This document shows, in pieces, positions 23,280-30,810 of a stretch of 33,176 bases of DNA; within the stretch, counting starts at the first letter, position 1, and each line of letters starts with the position of its first letter. The position numbers and the translations under genes were made by a program. Under the pieces are notes generated by a model. That model did not search any database. It was not told where the DNA came from and saw nothing but the letters and a program-made list of their open reading frames with translations. Source of the DNA: Ignavibacteria bacterium. GTDB taxonomy: Bacteria; Bacteroidota; Ignavibacteria; Ch128b. The stretch is taken from NCBI GenBank assembly GCA_026415235.1, contig JAOAHM010000085.1, forward strand, positions 1 through 33,176, written 5' to 3'.

Positions 23280-25172
23280 ATGATTAATTTTAGAGATAAA
23301 AATCTAATTCCCATTTGGGAAAAAGTTCAGCGTGGTGAAGAATTATCATTTGAAGATGGAATTACTCTATATAAATCTTCGGACATCATCTCAATTGGTA
23401 AAATGGCGCATTGGCTTCAGCGAGAAAAAAATGGTGATGCCGTTTACTTTGTAGTAAATCAAAAAATTGAACCGACAAACATTTGTGTACTTTCGTGTAA
23501 GTTCTGCGATTTTGCCGTTAAGAAAAATTCTCCTGAAGCTTATGAAATGACAATTGAAGAAATTTTATCGAAACTTCATCCTGAACTTCTTGAGGTTCAC
23601 ATCACTGGTGGATTGCATCCTGATTGGGAATGGGAATATTATGTCGGAATGGTTCGAGAGATTAAAAAACATTTTCCCAAAATTGATGTTAAGGCATTCA
23701 CTGCAGTTGAAATAGATTTCTTTTCAAAAAAATTCAAAAAATCAATTGAAGAAGTTTTGCTTGAATTAAAAGAAGCTGGACTTAGAACATTGCCTGGTGG
23801 TGGTGCAGAAGTTTTTTCTGAGAGAGTTAGGAGACTTCTTTTCAATCAAAAGATTGGCGCAAAACGATGGCTCGAAATTCATAAGAAAGCTCACGAACTT
23901 GGAATTCGTTCAAATGCGACTTTACTTTATGGTCACATCGAAACAATTGAAGAAAGAGTTAATCACTTCTTGTTGTTAAGAAATTTACAAAAGGAAACAG
24001 GTGGATTTCTTTCGTTCATTCCTCTTGCTTTTCAACCTGGTGATACAGGAATTAAACCAAGAAATCAATTTACTTCTGCGATTGATGATTTGAAGACAAT
24101 TGCCATTTCACGATTGATGCTTCATAATTTTGATCACATTAAAGCTTATTGGATTATGCTTACTGAAGAGCTTGCTGCAGTGGCTTTAAATTTCGGCGCT
24201 GATGATATGGATGGAACTGTAGGTGGTGAAAGAATTGCTCACGATGCTGGTGCAATTACTCCAATGCAACTGGCAAAAAATAAATTGATTAAAATTATTA
24301 ATGATGCGAACAAAATTCCTGTTGAAAGAGATATCTTTTATAAACCAGTTAGACTTCATTCTAATAATGTTATAGGAAGAGTTTCATATTTGAATACACT
24401 TCCTTTCTTCAAATATCTCGATAATCGTGAATACAAAATTTTTCCTGCTACACCACGACAACTTGGAATGCTTTTCAAAGATGGAAATATTGATGCAGGA
24501 ATTGTTTCGCTTGTTGATTTCTTTGAGAAAGAAAATGATTTTACTTATTTGAAATATGGAATAGTTGGAAATAAAAATGTTAAAAGTGTTCTACTTTACT
24601 CTAAATTTCCAATTGAACAGTTGGATAAAAAAAGTATTGCTGTGACGGATGAAACTTCAACATCGTTTAGATTGCTTCAGGTTTTGCTTGAGTTGAAATA
24701 TGGACTTGATGTAGTTTATGTGCGTGAGAAAATTTCTGCACGAGAAAAAACACTTCCGAATTTCGATGCATTTCTAACAATTGGCGATGAGGCTTTAAAA
24801 TTTTTGAAAAATAAACTTGATGGATTTAATTACATTTACGATTTAGCTCAACTATGGTATGATTGGAAAAATCTTCCTTTTGTTTTTGCTGTCTGGGCAG
24901 TGAAAAAAGATTTACCTCAAACTAAAATTGATGCTCTTGATAAACTTTTGAACGATGCATTAAACAAATTCTTTTCTTCTACAACAGAGATTGAAGAATA
25001 TTACAATGTAAAAATTGGTTTCACCCAAAAAGAAATTCAGGACTATCTGAATAACATAGTTTACAGATTGGGTGAAAAGGAAATTCAATCAATTAGTTTA
25101 TTCAAAGAATATTATCAAACTTTACTGCTGAAGCATTCTGAGGAAGAAAAAAAAGTTAAGTTATCCCATTAA
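23280..25172 (+). CDS. mqnE-mqnA: MqnE-MqnA fusion: aminofutalosine synthase plus chorismate dehydratase
   Basis: One uninterrupted 630-aa frame holds two menaquinone enzymes of the futalosine route. Residues 1 to about 355 are MqnE, a radical SAM enzyme joining 3-(1-carboxyvinyloxy)benzoate to SAM to give aminofutalosine: C69-VLS-C73-KF-C76, HITGGLHPDWEWEYY, RTLPGGGAEVFSERVR, LLYGHIETIEERV and GADDMDGTVGGERIAHDAGA. Residues about 365-630 are MqnA, which dehydrates chorismate to that same benzoate: IGRVSYLNTLPFFKYL, DAGIVSLVDFFE, SVLLYSKFPIE, AVTDETSTSFRLLQ, DAFLTIGDEAL and DLAQLWYDWKNLPFVFAVW. The linker is only some ten residues. The order in the protein is opposite to the reaction order; MqnA makes the substrate of MqnE, so channelling is plausible. 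mqnC follows after a repeat-filled gap. Confidence 0.93.
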   Translation: MINFRDKNLIPIWEKVQRGEELSFEDGITLYKSSDIISIGKMAHWLQREKNGDAVYFVVNQKIEPTNICVLSCKFCDFAVKKNSPEAYEMTIEEILSKLHPELLEVHITGGLHPDWEWEYYVGMVREIKKHFPKIDVKAFTAVEIDFFSKKFKKSIEEVLLELKEAGLRTLPGGGAEVFSERVRRLLFNQKIGAKRWLEIHKKAHELGIRSNATLLYGHIETIEERVNHFLLLRNLQKETGGFLSFIPLAFQPGDTGIKPRNQFTSAIDDLKTIAISRLMLHNFDHIKAYWIMLTEELAAVALNFGADDMDGTVGGERIAHDAGAITPMQLAKNKLIKIINDANKIPVERDIFYKPVRLHSNNVIGRVSYLNTLPFFKYLDNREYKIFPATPRQLGMLFKDGNIDAGIVSLVDFFEKENDFTYLKYGIVGNKNVKSVLLYSKFPIEQLDKKSIAVTDETSTSFRLLQVLLELKYGLDVVYVREKISAREKTLPNFDAFLTIGDEALKFLKNKLDGFNYIYDLAQLWYDWKNLPFVFAVWAVKKDLPQTKIDALDKLLNDALNKFFSSTTEIEEYYNVKIGFTQKEIQDYLNNIVYRLGEKEIQSISLFKEYYQTLLLKHSEEEKKVKLSH

Positions 25173-25479
25173 GTTAGTTTGGAATGTCTATTGTGTCACC
25201 CTGAGCCTGACGAAGGGTGACAGTTTAATTTCAATATTGCTATTGCGCTCCAGTTGTCATCCTTCGTCCTTGCTCAGGAAGACAACAAGTAGTTTGAAAT
25301 TTTTGCTTTGTCACTCTGAGCCTGACGAAGGGTGACAATAGTCAGATTGAAATTATGAGTTTATTAAAATCAGTCAGGCTTCGTAAAGTTCAGCCTGACA
25401 AAAAGAACTTACTGTCATCCCGAGCAACAACGAGGGGTGACATTGATATGTTCTATTAAAAAGAAAAGAAAGAAAAACT
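25173..25479. other. Intergenic region filled with palindromic repeats
   Basis: The 307-base gap between mqnE-mqnA and mqnC is mostly occupied by five palindromic units at 25195-25441, listed separately. They are richer in G+C than the surroundings. No gene is seen. Confidence 0.75.
25195..25441. repeat. Cluster of five GTCAYCC...GGGTGAC-type palindromic repeats
   Basis: Units: 25195-25221 (GTCACCCTGAGCCTGACGAA then GGGTGAC), 25254-25285 (reverse-oriented, degenerate, TTGTCATCCTTCGTCC...), 25310-25336 (near copy of the first, GTCACTCTGAGCCTGACGAA), 25373-25399 (GTCAGGCT...AGCCTGAC) and 25414-25441 (GTCATCCCGAGCAACAACGA then GGGGTGAC). Each can form a hairpin. Palindromes of this GTCACCCTGAGC...CGAAGGGTGAC kind are widespread intergenic repeats in Bacteroidota and others (from memory), probably REP-like non-autonomous elements. 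They may also act as transcript-end hairpins for mqnE-mqnA. Confidence 0.85.
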
Positions 25480-26580
25480 ATGCTTACGAAAGATATACTA
25501 AAAAAAGTTATTGATGGCGAAAGAATATCTAATGAAGAATGTTTACAACTTCTCCAATACAATGATATACTCGAACTTGGTGAAGTTGCAAATGAAATTC
25601 GCTTCAGAAAAAATCCTGAAAACTATGTAACATTTGTTGTAGATACAAATCCAAACTACACAAATGTTTGTGAAATTGATTGTACCTTCTGTGCATTCTA
25701 TCGTCATAAAGATGAGCCCGATGCTTACACTTATTCGGTAGACGAGTTAATCAAAAAATTTAAAGACGCAGCTAAGAGAGGCGTTACTACTGTTCTTCTT
25801 CAAGGTGGTGTTAATCCAGATTTACCTTTTGAATATTATCTCGAACTTGTTGAAAGAACAAGAAAAGAAGTTCCAGAAATTCATCCTCACTTCTTCTCTA
25901 CTTCAGAGATTATTGGAATGAGTGAGGTGAGTGGACTTTCAATTAGAGAAGTTCTTATAAAATTAAAAGAAGCTGGTCTCAATACAATTCCAGGTGGTGG
26001 TGCAGAAATTTTAAGTGACCGTGTTAAAAGAAAAATAAGTAAGAAGAAAGGAACAAGTGCAGACTATCTAAATGTAATGCGTGAAGCTCATTTGCTTGGA
26101 TACAAAACAACCGCAACAATGATGTTTGGTCACATTGAAAGCGATGAAGATATTGTAATTCATCTCGAAAGTATTAGAAAACTTCAAGATGAAACTGGAG
26201 GATTTACTGCATTCATTCCATGGAGCTTCAAACCCGAAAACACTCCACTCGAAAAACACATCAAATCATTTGCTTCGCCATATCGCTATTTGCAAATCAT
26301 AGCAATCTCAAGAATTTATCTTGATAACTTCCCTCACATTCAAGCATCGTGGTTTAGTGAAGGTAAAAAGATTGGACAAGTTGCATTACACTTTGGTGCA
26401 GATGATTTTGGTGGAACACTTGAAGAAGAAAATGTTCATGCTGCAGCAAATTTCATAAACAAAAGCTCAACAGAAGAAGTAATTGATTTAATTCATGGTG
26501 CTGGTTTCGATGCTGCACAAAGAGATACGCTGTATAATATTTTGAAAGTGTATGCCCAAAATGCAATCAAGATTTTATGA
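25480..26580 (+). CDS. mqnC: Cyclic dehypoxanthinyl futalosine synthase
   Basis: Radical SAM enzyme of the futalosine menaquinone pathway that cyclises dehypoxanthine futalosine. The cluster motif is CEIDCTFCAFYRHKDEPDAY; TTVLLQGGVNPDLPFEYYLE, HFFSTSEIIGMSEVSGLSI, LNTIPGGGAEILSDRVKRKI, TATMMFGHIESDEDIVIHL and FTAFIPWSFKPENTPLEK follow, with GADDFGGTLEEENVHAAAN near the end. These features separate MqnC from MqnE (FCAFYR against FCDFAV). The 366-aa length is normal. It has the same orientation as mqnE-mqnA. Its last 14 bases overlap, convergently, the 3' end of the response regulator gene on the other strand. MqnB and MqnD homologues are not in the window. Confidence 0.95.
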   Translation: MLTKDILKKVIDGERISNEECLQLLQYNDILELGEVANEIRFRKNPENYVTFVVDTNPNYTNVCEIDCTFCAFYRHKDEPDAYTYSVDELIKKFKDAAKRGVTTVLLQGGVNPDLPFEYYLELVERTRKEVPEIHPHFFSTSEIIGMSEVSGLSIREVLIKLKEAGLNTIPGGGAEILSDRVKRKISKKKGTSADYLNVMREAHLLGYKTTATMMFGHIESDEDIVIHLESIRKLQDETGGFTAFIPWSFKPENTPLEKHIKSFASPYRYLQIIAISRIYLDNFPHIQASWFSEGKKIGQVALHFGADDFGGTLEEENVHAAANFINKSSTEEVIDLIHGAGFDAAQRDTLYNILKVYAQNAIKIL

Positions 26581-27613
26581 ACATTAGTAATTCAGATAAA
26601 TCTTTAATTCCTTTAGATTCATAATTAACCTTAGAAAGATAATCTTCTATTAAGCTTATTTCTAAATCTTTTTTCTCCTGTATTACATAAAGGGAAAAAA
26701 TGATAGCAGAAAATATAACATTAAATAAATCTGGTTGAAATGATTGATCTGGGTGAATTGATTTGTTTCTATAATTATTTAATTTGAAACCAAATCTAAC
26801 TAATTCAAGAGGGCTTTCAGCAATAATTATAGATAAAGAATTATTTTCTTGCCATACAAATTCTTTACTAGTTAAAATTAATTTTTCAGCTTGATATTTA
26901 TTTTTTTCAAAATCTCTTTTCAATTCCTCATCGCTTTTTGAATTTCTTAAAAAAGAAATTAAACAACTATGATAAAGATGTATAATTAATCTATAATAAA
27001 TATAACTTGATGTAATGTTTTTAAGGTTAAGCATTAAATTCAATATTATATTAATATTATCTAATATTTCCCATTGAATTTCAAAAGGTAATTTACTATT
27101 TGAAATTTTGCGTTTGATTTTCTTATTAAACTTAAATATATCAAATAGATAATATTCTTTTTCTAGTTCTTCCAAGATTTTTCTTATACCTATATCGAAC
27201 CAGTCCTGTAGTCCAGCGTCTTTTCTACTTTTGTCAAATGTATAAACTACCAATCCTTTTTTAACTAGTTCTTGATGTTCTTCTGATAAGTCTAAGGCCT
27301 TAAACTGTCCTGAATAAGTACATATTTTAGAAATGGGGCAAATTGAAAAAGCTTTTTTAATGATTTCAAAACCAGAATCTCTTCTGCCTCCTTTATGTGA
27401 TTGTTGCGTAAAATCAATATCAATAAATAGAATATGATAAAAATCGTTCTTTTCATTGGCCTCCGATAATTTACTAATAGCTTTTTCTGGAAATTCACAT
27501 TCAATTATATCAAATTCATATTCTGAATTTTCTTTTAACTTATAAAGTTCTTCTATCAAAATATCTCTTGCTTCGATGGTATCTTCTGCTATCAATACTT
27601 TAAATTTTTTCAT
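26567..27613 (-). CDS. Response regulator with putative HEPN ribonuclease output domain
   Basis: A 348-aa protein of two parts. Residues 3 to about 150 form a receiver domain: KVLIAEDTIEARDIL with acidic E10/D11, phospho-acceptor D65 in ILFIDIDF, T99/S101 in KICTYSGQ and K128 in VVYTFDKS. Residues about 155-325 are all-helical, with no DNA-binding motif, and contain NNYRNKSIHPDQSFQPDLFN, where R282-N-x3-H287 fits the R-N-x3-H active site of HEPN ribonucleases, followed by a long hydrophobic helix as in HEPN folds. I infer a phosphorylation-controlled HEPN RNase. The HEPN call rests on the motif and helical context only. The start overlaps the kinase gene by 14 bases, which pairs the two. The 3' end overlaps mqnC convergently. 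Confidence 0.7.
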   Translation of the reverse strand: MKKFKVLIAEDTIEARDILIEELYKLKENSEYEFDIIECEFPEKAISKLSEANEKNDFYHILFIDIDFTQQSHKGGRRDSGFEIIKKAFSICPISKICTYSGQFKALDLSEEHQELVKKGLVVYTFDKSRKDAGLQDWFDIGIRKILEELEKEYYLFDIFKFNKKIKRKISNSKLPFEIQWEILDNINIILNLMLNLKNITSSYIYYRLIIHLYHSCLISFLRNSKSDEELKRDFEKNKYQAEKLILTSKEFVWQENNSLSIIIAESPLELVRFGFKLNNYRNKSIHPDQSFQPDLFNVIFSAIIFSLYVIQEKKDLEISLIEDYLSKVNYESKGIKDLSELLMFIKS

Positions 27614-28526
27614 ACTTAATTAATTTTGGTACTTGTAATTTTATTATAGTTTGAGATTTATCACTATCAATTTCGAATTTACTCTCAATATGTAAGTTAT
27701 GACACCATTTTTTTACCAATCTTAATCCAACTTTAGATGATTTAGACATAGGTATTTCTTCTGTCAGATTTTCTTGATTTGAATTAAACCAATCAGTCTC
27801 GGTTTTAGAAATTATACGATTATTATAAATTGCTACTTTAATAAACATTTCATATTCTATAATTTCTATATGAATTTTGGGATCTTCTTCGTCAGTGTAT
27901 TGAAAAGCGTTTCTCAATAAATCTTTGCATATTAGTTCTAATGCTGTTTCAAGATTATCGTCAATTTCTATTTCACATATACCTTTTGTAAAAATGGGAA
28001 TATTTAGGTTTAGAAGTTTATTTTTATGCTCTCTAATAGATAATCTTAATGAATCTATACCTTCTTTAATTGTATAAATTTGTGCTTCTATTAAATTTTT
28101 TAGATTTACTTTATGTATTTCTTTGGCTTTTGGTAATCTTTCTTTATTCAAATCCCACATAATTAGATTGGTAATGTCTCTAATTCTTGTAATATTATGC
28201 TTAGCTTTTTTTATCAAATGAAAGTATTCAACGGTTTGAGGGATACTATTCAGATATGAGAGAGCTGCAAATACATCGGTATTAATTGAATGCGACATTT
28301 CATCAACAATCTTTTTCCAAGTATTTAATTGTGAATTTAGTTCTTTCTCCCTTAGAAGTGAATTGAGAGTTTTCTTTTGAAATTTAATTCTTTCTTTAAT
28401 TAATTCGTTGAATGTTTTTTCCCTATGTAATTCTTTTTCTTTTATTTCAGAAATTTCCTTTCTTAAATTTTCATTTTCATTTTTTAAGTTTTCAATTAAA
28501 TTCAATAACTCTTTAATTTCATCCAT
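27600..28526 (-). CDS. Soluble histidine kinase
   Basis: A 308-aa kinase without membrane segments. Residues 1 to about 70 are a charged coiled coil (IENLKNENENLRKEISEIKE). The H-box is IVDEMSHSINTDVFAAL with H79, an unusual form of the SHELRTPL pattern. The catalytic domain has an N-box (LICKDLLRNAFQYTDEE, N206) and a G2-like box (SKVGLRLVKKWCHNLH, GLRLV from 267). The DxGxG G1 motif is replaced by VAIYNNRIIS, so ATP binding may be atypical. With no sensor domain of its own it probably receives input through the coiled coil or from the 398-aa protein encoded 17 bases upstream. Its stop overlaps the receiver-HEPN gene, its likely phosphotransfer partner. Confidence 0.83.
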   Translation of the reverse strand: MDEIKELLNLIENLKNENENLRKEISEIKEKELHREKTFNELIKERIKFQKKTLNSLLREKELNSQLNTWKKIVDEMSHSINTDVFAALSYLNSIPQTVEYFHLIKKAKHNITRIRDITNLIMWDLNKERLPKAKEIHKVNLKNLIEAQIYTIKEGIDSLRLSIREHKNKLLNLNIPIFTKGICEIEIDDNLETALELICKDLLRNAFQYTDEEDPKIHIEIIEYEMFIKVAIYNNRIISKTETDWFNSNQENLTEEIPMSKSSKVGLRLVKKWCHNLHIESKFEIDSDKSQTIIKLQVPKLIKYEKI

Positions 28527-28543
28527 TTTAATTAAGTGTTTTT

Positions 28544-29740
28544 TTACTTACGAATTTTCTCTAAAAAATTTTCATATTTTTTCTCAAGTGTATAACTGAA
28601 TAAATTACCTGGGTTTTTAAAAACATTAAATATTGGAGAAAATTCATTTATTAAATTCAGATAGACTTGATAATCAATCATTGTTTTTTCTTCATAGAAC
28701 GAAATTTTTGTATTTTCTTTTAACCAGCTTAAAACTTCTATTTCTTTTGTTTTTTGTTCTTCAGTTAATATTGCCTTTAAATACTTTAGTAACTCGTTAC
28801 ACTTTCCTAAATCCATAAGAAATGGTTCATAGATTTCATCTGATAATGAACCACTAGTATGACCAATATAAATATATGGACGAGTTTGTACATATTCAGA
28901 AGCTTCTTTTAACGGAAATTCTTTTCCTGTAAAAATTACAGCATAAATTCCAGCATCATAATATAATTTTAATGCTTCATCCCAGGGAGTTAGGTTTTCT
29001 CTAAAATATTTCTTTAAGAACTCAATATCATCGGTTAAACTTATATAATTGTTTTCATCTATATGGAATCGCTCAGAATTTTCAATTAAAGCATTCTTTA
29101 TTAGTGATAAATCATCAATTTCTAAACCAAAATGTAATTTTAATAATAAGGGAATATTATCTAAATGCAGTTTATTACTATTTCTTACTAAACTTGCAAT
29201 ATGTTTAGCAATTATGTATGACTTATAATCTTCCTTATATAAGCAAAAATGAAGTTCGTTAGATTTTCTTACTTTATCAATTATAAAATGATTTTCTGTA
29301 ACTAAAATACGGAAAACTTTGTTAAGGAAATCTATGTCACAAAGTTCTAACATCCTGGGTTCTTTACTAAAGAATAAATTTTTAAATTGTTTTTGGATAA
29401 AATCTAAAGTTTTATCACTATAAGAGAACACATATACTTTTCTAGTAAGAAATACACAATTGAATATATCTACAATTGCTTTTTTAAATACATCTTGGCT
29501 GATTAGATAACTTTCTTTAATGTGTTCTAAATTAATTTTTGAATATGTTGGTTTCCTAATAATTTCATAAAAATTTAGTAATTCTATACCATAATCTTGA
29601 TAATCAAATTGTATAGGTAACTCTTCTTTTTCAAAAAAGAGATGACTTATTTTTTTTAACTTAACGGGTTTTCCTTCCTTATCAAGATAATTTTTAACAT
29701 CATTAATTTTTTGTTTTAAATTTAATTCTGATACAACCAT
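28544..29740 (-). CDS. Unrecognised 398-aa protein of the CARF/two-component cassette
   Basis: I do not recognise this family. The protein has no signal peptide or membrane helix and is rich in Lys, Ile, Leu and Asn. Residues about 8-65 look like a small helical, possibly winged-helix, segment (KINDVKNYLDKEGKPVKLKK). A region at about 100-160 alternates strand and helix (KVYVFSYSDKTLDFIQKQF, RILVTENHFIIDKVRK). About 250-300 holds TPWDEALKLYYDAGIYAVIF and RPYIYIGHTSGSLSDEIYEP, the most motif-like part, with Gly-His-Thr-Ser-Gly in a turn. The remainder is helical. A ribosome binding site AAAAGGA lies before the ATG. Its place between the CARF gene (86 bases upstream) and the kinase gene (17 bases downstream) suggests a sensor, adaptor or second effector. 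Confidence 0.75.
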   Translation of the reverse strand: MVVSELNLKQKINDVKNYLDKEGKPVKLKKISHLFFEKEELPIQFDYQDYGIELLNFYEIIRKPTYSKINLEHIKESYLISQDVFKKAIVDIFNCVFLTRKVYVFSYSDKTLDFIQKQFKNLFFSKEPRMLELCDIDFLNKVFRILVTENHFIIDKVRKSNELHFCLYKEDYKSYIIAKHIASLVRNSNKLHLDNIPLLLKLHFGLEIDDLSLIKNALIENSERFHIDENNYISLTDDIEFLKKYFRENLTPWDEALKLYYDAGIYAVIFTGKEFPLKEASEYVQTRPYIYIGHTSGSLSDEIYEPFLMDLGKCNELLKYLKAILTEEQKTKEIEVLSWLKENTKISFYEEKTMIDYQVYLNLINEFSPIFNVFKNPGNLFSYTLEKKYENFLEKIRK

Positions 29741-29826
29741 ATTTGAAATTCCTTTTATTATCTTCTTTCATTCAAAATTAACGAACTTTCTAAAGAATTT
29801 ATTTACTGAAATATTTCCGCAACTTT

Positions 29827-30810
29827 TCAATTTTCGATTTTTATCTTTTCTAAATCCAATAAAATTCCATAAAACATTGCACCTTTCTTGCCGTGACTAA
29901 CTATTTGATAATACCTTGAGATTTTGTCGTCATTAAGTAGAATTTTAATTTTTTTATTTAATCTTGAAATATTTGCTCTGAATGTAGTAGTTGATAAAGG
30001 CTGCTTATTATATATAATTTTTTTTAATACTAATCTGTGCAATTCAAGATCGGGAAAACTTTCTTCATGATATATATATATTTCATTGATTATTTCAAGC
30101 GGGACAAATAATCCTGACATTTTTACTTCACTAATACCTTGTAGTTTTTTTTCTACAAAGAATCTGTAATAGGAGAACTCAATTGGAGAAAATGGAACTT
30201 CATATTGTCCAATGTAAACTCTGCCTTTCTTAATCTGCAATATTAGTTCTGGTAATAATGATTTTTTAATATTGTTTAATTCATTTTCTAACCTTATTAT
30301 TTTTGGCAAAGTTGTGTTTAATTTAACTTCTTTAATATCACCACCATACTTTGGGTTACGAATATATATTAGTTTAAGTGGAAATTCTTTTGAAAAGTCA
30401 CCTGACTCACTCAATAGTATCCAACAAACTTGCATCGCTGGAGTGCCTGATGAAATTGAAGCGGTATATTCAATAAATTCATTTTTCGGTAAAGTATCAC
30501 AAAAAGTTTTGAGCTTTTCATATATTTCATTATGGTCTACAACATCGTTAATATTAAGTTCGAATAGTAATACTTTATTTGAAAGTTTCCTTTTTTTAAT
30601 TTCTTTAATTAAGTATAAGCCTATTCCTTTAAAATCAATCTCTGAACTTGAATTGTATAATAGAATAATCTCATCATATTTCATTTGTTTAAGTATTGTT
30701 AAGATAGCCCCATCTTCTTGACCCATCAATTTTCCAGCGTCATTTGTTCCAATAAAGGATAGCAAAATTTTTTTTATTTTTTTCATAAATTCATTGGAGT
30801 TTTTAATCAT
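29827..30810 (-). CDS. RtcR-type CARF domain protein with C-terminal winged helix
   Basis: The N-terminal half (about 10-165) is a Rossmann-like CARF domain of the kind found at the front of RtcR: ILLSFIGTNDAGKLMGQEDG, DEIILLYNSS, then the ligand-site motif EYTASISSGTPAMQVCWILL and LKLIYIRNPKYGG. CARF domains bind cyclic oligoadenylates or related RNA-end signals. Residues about 195-320 look like an OmpR-like winged helix (PFSPIEFSYYRFFVEKK, STTTFRANISRLNKKIKILL, YYQIVSHGKKGAMFYGILL), so it may be a ligand-controlled transcription factor of its own operon. It lacks the AAA+ domain of RtcR. M9 (30786) is an alternative start just before the domain. No cas gene or oligonucleotide cyclase is visible nearby. 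Confidence 0.8.
   Translation of the reverse strand: MIKNSNEFMKKIKKILLSFIGTNDAGKLMGQEDGAILTILKQMKYDEIILLYNSSSEIDFKGIGLYLIKEIKKRKLSNKVLLFELNINDVVDHNEIYEKLKTFCDTLPKNEFIEYTASISSGTPAMQVCWILLSESGDFSKEFPLKLIYIRNPKYGGDIKEVKLNTTLPKIIRLENELNNIKKSLLPELILQIKKGRVYIGQYEVPFSPIEFSYYRFFVEKKLQGISEVKMSGLFVPLEIINEIYIYHEESFPDLELHRLVLKKIIYNKQPLSTTTFRANISRLNKKIKILLNDDKISRYYQIVSHGKKGAMFYGILLDLEKIKIEN

Follow-up and report, generated by a model that had tools for sequence, protein, structure and literature searches.

A single open reading frame without internal stop codons in the genome of an Ignavibacteria bacterium encodes a complete aminodeoxyfutalosine synthase (MqnE) followed by a complete chorismate dehydratase (MqnA). 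It lies within a window of 33,176 nucleotides, the whole stretch of DNA analysed here (contig JAOAHM010000085.1), and its features are listed in the table below together with related loci from other genomes. Judging from the sequences, it is highly probable that the 630-aa product is a bifunctional MqnA and MqnE enzyme derived from the end-to-end joining of two adjacent operon genes; that both halves are active is, taken by itself, very likely. The first-pass annotation had described one protein with a full MqnE and then a full MqnA domain, connected near residue 360. Indeed, the corresponding profiles are matched near end to end within one frame, with the native MqnE tail extending to approximately residue 363 and MqnA beginning at approximately residue 364.

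Table. Features of the mqnE-mqnA locus (window coordinates) and related loci in other genomes
Feature	Coordinates or loci	Strand	Remarks
mqnE-mqnA fusion ORF	23280..25172	+	ATG start, 630 aa, stop within coordinates
MqnE (aminodeoxyfutalosine synthase) radical SAM domain	23313..24350	+	residues 12-357; TIGR03700, PF04055, PF19288
CX3CX2C [4Fe-4S]/SAM motif	23484..23507	+	C69-C73-C76
MqnE/MqnA junction	24327..24368	+	residues 350-363; native MqnE tail and MqnA start
MqnA (chorismate dehydratase) domain	24372..25115	+	residues 365-612; PF02621, PDB, fold match
MqnA N372	24393..24395	+	aligns with Asn mutated in PDB 7an7
MqnA S436	24585..24587	+	aligns with Ser mutated in PDB 7an8
MqnA Y589	25044..25046	+	aligns with Tyr mutated in PDB 7an9
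mqnC, cyclic dehypoxanthinyl futalosine synthase	25480..26580	+	TIGR03699; next gene downstream of fusion
MqnE homologue, family f4	L124; L125 = L105:1420-2640; L126 = L108:1423-2568 (-)		genomes G018, G036, G008
MqnA-MqnC single-frame fusions, family f4	L020, L021, L022, L105:2568-4661		
MqnA-MqnC single-frame fusions, Myxococcota-like records	L046, L047, L052, L055, L061, L067		

The N-terminal half is readily assigned to MqnE. In the NCBIfam profile search, residues 12-357 matched the MqnE equivalog model TIGR03700 over its entire length (profile positions 1-351 of 351) with 467.3 bits, compared to the curated cut-off of 434.55 bits. The same half stayed below the cut-offs of the MqnC model (TIGR03699, 345.5 bits versus 428.1 needed) and of TIGR03551 (308.2 bits versus 374.1), the latter tested for distinction from CofH, and it is placed apart from MqnC in the MqnE tree. 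Every one of the 91 MqnE rows in the alignment (A2) has the three cysteines of the CX3CX2C motif, C69, C73 and C76. The fold search retrieved MqnE of Pedobacter heparinus (PDB 6xi9/6xig; 39% identity to 6xi9), which shares the full-length domain, the cysteine motif and the fold; however, the P. heparinus enzyme is a separate protein, whereas the Ignavibacteria MqnE carries a second enzyme at its C-terminus.

MqnE catalyses the reaction of the MqnA product with SAM to yield aminodeoxyfutalosine, and in the fusion this step, in which the adenosyl part of SAM would be joined to the MqnA product to give 6-amino-6-deoxyfutalosine, would fall to the N-terminal radical SAM domain. The substrate would be supplied by the C-terminal domain through dehydration of chorismate to 3-[(1-carboxyvinyl)oxy]benzoate, the reaction described for MqnA (PMC8042841), in agreement with the initial statement that the product of MqnA is the substrate of MqnE. 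As the first-pass annotation also stated, the order of the domains, with MqnE at the N-terminus and MqnA at the C-terminus, is opposite to the order of the reactions.

To the origin of this arrangement, the phylogenies of the two halves speak consistently. In quick trees with SH-aLRT support only and no bootstrap, all 28 fused rows of the MqnA tree fall on one side of a branch (SH-aLRT 93), and so do the fused rows of the MqnE tree (SH-aLRT 92), except for L038, a row labelled unfused that sits among the fused ones and comes from a contig ending inside its MqnA part. A single origin of the fusion, with which both trees are consistent, is the simplest reading rather than a proof. In both trees, Chloroflexota, Rokubacteria and Latescibacterota provide the nearest relatives, with mqnE-mqnA(-mqnC) genes that are adjacent but separate. 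In these sister taxa, approximately 13-17 residues follow the conserved VERD motif in the separate MqnE, and in the majority of cases mqnA begins no later than the stop codon of mqnE. In the fusions, the span from E349 of the VERD motif to N372 of the MqnA domain amounts to 24 residues in 23 of 26 cases; this constant span, together with the tail length of the sister MqnE, indicates that a native tail and a native head were joined without an added linker. Adjacent, often overlapping mqnE and mqnA genes, in this order, would thus have merged, most simply once, and the resulting gene would have been passed down across the lineage by inheritance.

The same comparison accounts for the reversed domain order, which follows from the ancestral operon order mqnE-mqnA-mqnC and requires no functional explanation because the separate genes of the sister taxa share it. 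The 'mqnEAC operon' has already been mentioned in the literature (PMC4746308), and the operons of this type in Chloroflexota, Rokubacteria and Latescibacterota resemble the Ignavibacteria locus in the genes, in their order and in having mqnC next. The difference is that the genes are separate and often overlapping in these operons but occupy one frame in Ignavibacteria. As for the advantage of the merger, we infer that fixed 1:1 production and co-localisation of both enzymes would be the most likely benefit.

Alternatively, the fusion could serve to channel carboxyvinyloxybenzoate, which would leave the MqnA site and reach the MqnE site directly along a path created by rigid packing of the two domains; transfer from the C-terminal to the N-terminal domain had been proposed in the first-pass annotation. 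The reactions are consecutive and take place within one chain, and the junction length is invariant in 23 of 26 fusions. Furthermore, an AlphaFold model built with 115 aligned sequences (pLDDT 94.6, pTM 0.92) predicts a single body with confidence, with a junction pLDDT of 96-97 and no disorder, which suggests that the fusion is a rigid two-domain body; this model superseded a poor one based on only 13 sequences (pLDDT 75, pTM 0.54). However, operon order and the seamless joining of the genes fully account for both the order and the connection of the domains, and most relatives perform the two steps with separate proteins. Channelling of this kind appears unlikely to us.

In another alternative reading, one half would have turned into a structural or regulatory appendage. 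Some observations could be taken to point to such a loss of catalysis: divergence is faster in the MqnA half than in the MqnE half, as seen from the longer branches in the MqnA tree, and the MqnE homologue of a related family within the class lacks the cluster motif. By contrast, the catalytic residues are kept in both halves across the fused clade, and no replacement enzyme was found in the genome. Specifically, the PDB entries 7an7 (Asn), 7an8 (Ser) and 7an9 (Tyr) are mutant chains of Streptomyces coelicolor MqnA, and the columns of the MqnA alignment that correspond to these positions contain N in 50 of 50 rows (N372), S in 48 of 50 rows and T in the other 2 (S436), and Y in 48 of 50 rows and F in the other 2 (Y589). 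The earlier claim that both halves keep their signatures is borne out, and given the conservation of the MqnE cysteines and of the three MqnA positions, the fusion carries two apparently complete active sites. A non-catalytic half is, in our assessment, very unlikely.

Assignment of the C-terminal half to MqnA, rather than to MqnD, requires some care. Residues 365-612 matched PF02621 above its cut-off (179.9 bits, profile positions 3-250 of 252), but this family includes both MqnA and MqnD, and were the domain an MqnD or another PF02621 protein, the fusion would join non-consecutive steps. The sequence search of the PDB with this half yielded significant E-values exclusively for MqnA/chorismate dehydratase chains, among them 7ahr/2nxo (SCO4506; E 1e-23), and the fold search ranked MqnA structures, including 7ahr, 2nxo and 6o9a (approximately 4e-20 to 1e-19), well ahead of MqnD (3e-10). 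Moreover, the domain retains the MqnA catalytic positions, the MqnD rows sit on a long separate branch of the MqnA tree, and the genome has a separate MqnD elsewhere. The MqnD assignment was rejected on the basis of the PDB matches, the fold ranking and the position in the tree, and we regard it as exceedingly improbable. Compared to SCO4506, the fused MqnA shows the same full-length PF02621 domain, key Asn/Ser/Tyr residues and fold at approximately 25% identity; unlike SCO4506, it lacks its own start codon, with its N-terminus being joined to the MqnE tail.

The gene content of the genome is in line with this assignment. It encodes two PF02621 proteins, the fusion and one MqnD; the latter, located on another contig (C84), has an MqnD-like start and groups with the MqnD rows. 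The fusion is the only match for both MqnE and MqnA, with the second MqnE-like protein being MqnC, the product of the downstream gene (TIGR03699, 475.9 bits versus the cut-off of 428.1). The assembly is a draft of 97 contigs with 88.8% completeness, so that absences from it are not final and another copy of mqnA or mqnE may have escaped assembly; none, however, was found in any of the sampled genomes of the fused families. At this completeness, no TIGR00173 match signifying MenD and no TIGR03664 match signifying futalosine hydrolase were detected. Given the lack of a TIGR03664 hydrolase, the next step of the pathway would need an MTAN-like nucleosidase; the genome encodes two nucleosidase-family PF01048 proteins, which may be of the MqnB or the MTAN type. 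Overall, the presence of the fusion, mqnC and mqnD along with the absence of MenD fits the aminodeoxyfutalosine route.

Among 391 genomes sampled from the class Ignavibacteria, 125 contained a match, and approximately 92 of these encode MqnE and MqnA in one ORF. By a hand count from the match table, which also gave the total of approximately 92, 84 of these loci are near full length and 8 are cut by contig ends or damaged. The fusions come from families f1, f3, f9, f11, f12, f17, f18, f23 and f31, with no exception among the intact loci. The remaining genomes with a match carry a separate mqnE (19 genomes; families f8 and f16), an MqnA-MqnC fusion (4 genomes; family f4) or fragments or MqnC only (10 genomes). 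Relatives of the same genus carry the single ORF at 86-87% identity, and those from other genera and families at approximately 55-77%. No MqnE-MqnA fusion was detected outside the class among the sampled genomes of the phylum. A further, frameshifted copy is present in a KSB1 record (L070), and a copy from a record titled Deltaproteobacteria (L035) groups within the Ignavibacteria in both phylogenies. Thus, the search for other fusions of this kind proposed in the first-pass annotation was productive, yielding nine Ignavibacteria families and the KSB1 record. Rather than being confined to one genome, the fusion is typical of most Ignavibacteria with the futalosine pathway.

Against this background, the chance that a sequencing or assembly error in a draft of this many contigs deleted a stop codon between two genes, which had been named as a potential refutation, is negligible, given that approximately 84 near-full-length loci elsewhere show an identical junction length in a frame that is likewise unbroken; the recurrence of the single-ORF architecture in other genera and families excludes chance or a lost stop codon. 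Two further candidates were discarded. A 691-aa frame in G064 (f8), considered as an independent fusion, resolved into two distinct genes, mqnE (394 aa) and mqnA (287 aa). An 898-aa frame resembling an MqnE-MqnA-MqnC triple fusion (G130/L036/L107:3-2696 (-)) has part of MqnA missing and part in another frame, probably the result of a deletion or an assembly fault in one record.

The fusion combines two known enzymes in a new way and is widespread in one lineage. Throughout that bacterial lineage, the two committed steps that open the futalosine pathway to menaquinone (vitamin K2) have merged into one protein, which supports the view that MqnA and MqnE are linked functionally or physically. Automatic UniProt rules may already annotate proteins of this kind as multifunctional fusions. 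No published description of an MqnE-MqnA fusion was found in the literature searched, which was covered in part, and fusions are not mentioned by Zhi et al. (2014; PMC3914697). Since the two enzymes and the order of their operon genes were known before, the gain in biological understanding is modest. From a practical standpoint, the fusion may offer a single-chain construct for producing aminodeoxyfutalosine from chorismate and SAM, and it calls for caution in annotation, given that searches for a separate mqnA may score fused genomes as lacking the first step.

Other fusions involving cofactor pathway enzymes provide points of comparison. The MqnA-MqnC fusions of family f4 and of the Myxococcota-like records similarly couple MqnA covalently to a radical SAM enzyme from the futalosine pathway; unlike in MqnE-MqnA, however, MqnA precedes MqnC and the two steps are non-consecutive. 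In neither tree do the Myxococcota-like rows lie near the MqnE-MqnA clade. One of these records, L052, is titled Klebsiella pneumoniae, but its mqn genes group with the Myxococcota-like sequences, and it is probably a mislabelled MAG. The bifunctional FO synthase CofG-CofH (NF006687) likewise covers two cofactor-pathway steps with a single chain and includes an MqnE-like radical SAM domain, but both of its halves are radical SAM domains and the pathway is that of F420; the fusion is not a member of NF006687 (253 bits versus the cut-off of 1018).

The four genomes of family f4 (99-100% complete) encode the MqnA-MqnC fusion and MqnD, and no MqnE match reached the cut-off in them. They contain instead an MqnE homologue of 368-407 aa, in which, in the three copies read, the CX3CX2C region is lost and the rest of the barrel is recognisable. 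The genomes with these copies (G018, G036 and G008) are near-complete and have MqnA, MqnC and MqnD, with a canonical MqnE not being found. With regard to whether and how aminodeoxyfutalosine is made, family f4 may be a better target than the MqnE-MqnA fusion itself.

Some additional features surround the fusion gene. Window positions 26567-30810 on the reverse strand include a protein with CARF-like similarity at 29827-30810 (RtcR/Csx1-type models). Next to it lie three ORFs that match no known family convincingly, apart from very weak hints of GIY-YIG in one and of HATPase in another. The gap that separates the fusion from mqnC contains two copies of a 48-nt repeat (window 25175-25222 and 25290-25337) with the inverted-repeat core TGTCACCCTGAGCCTGACGAAGGGTGACA.
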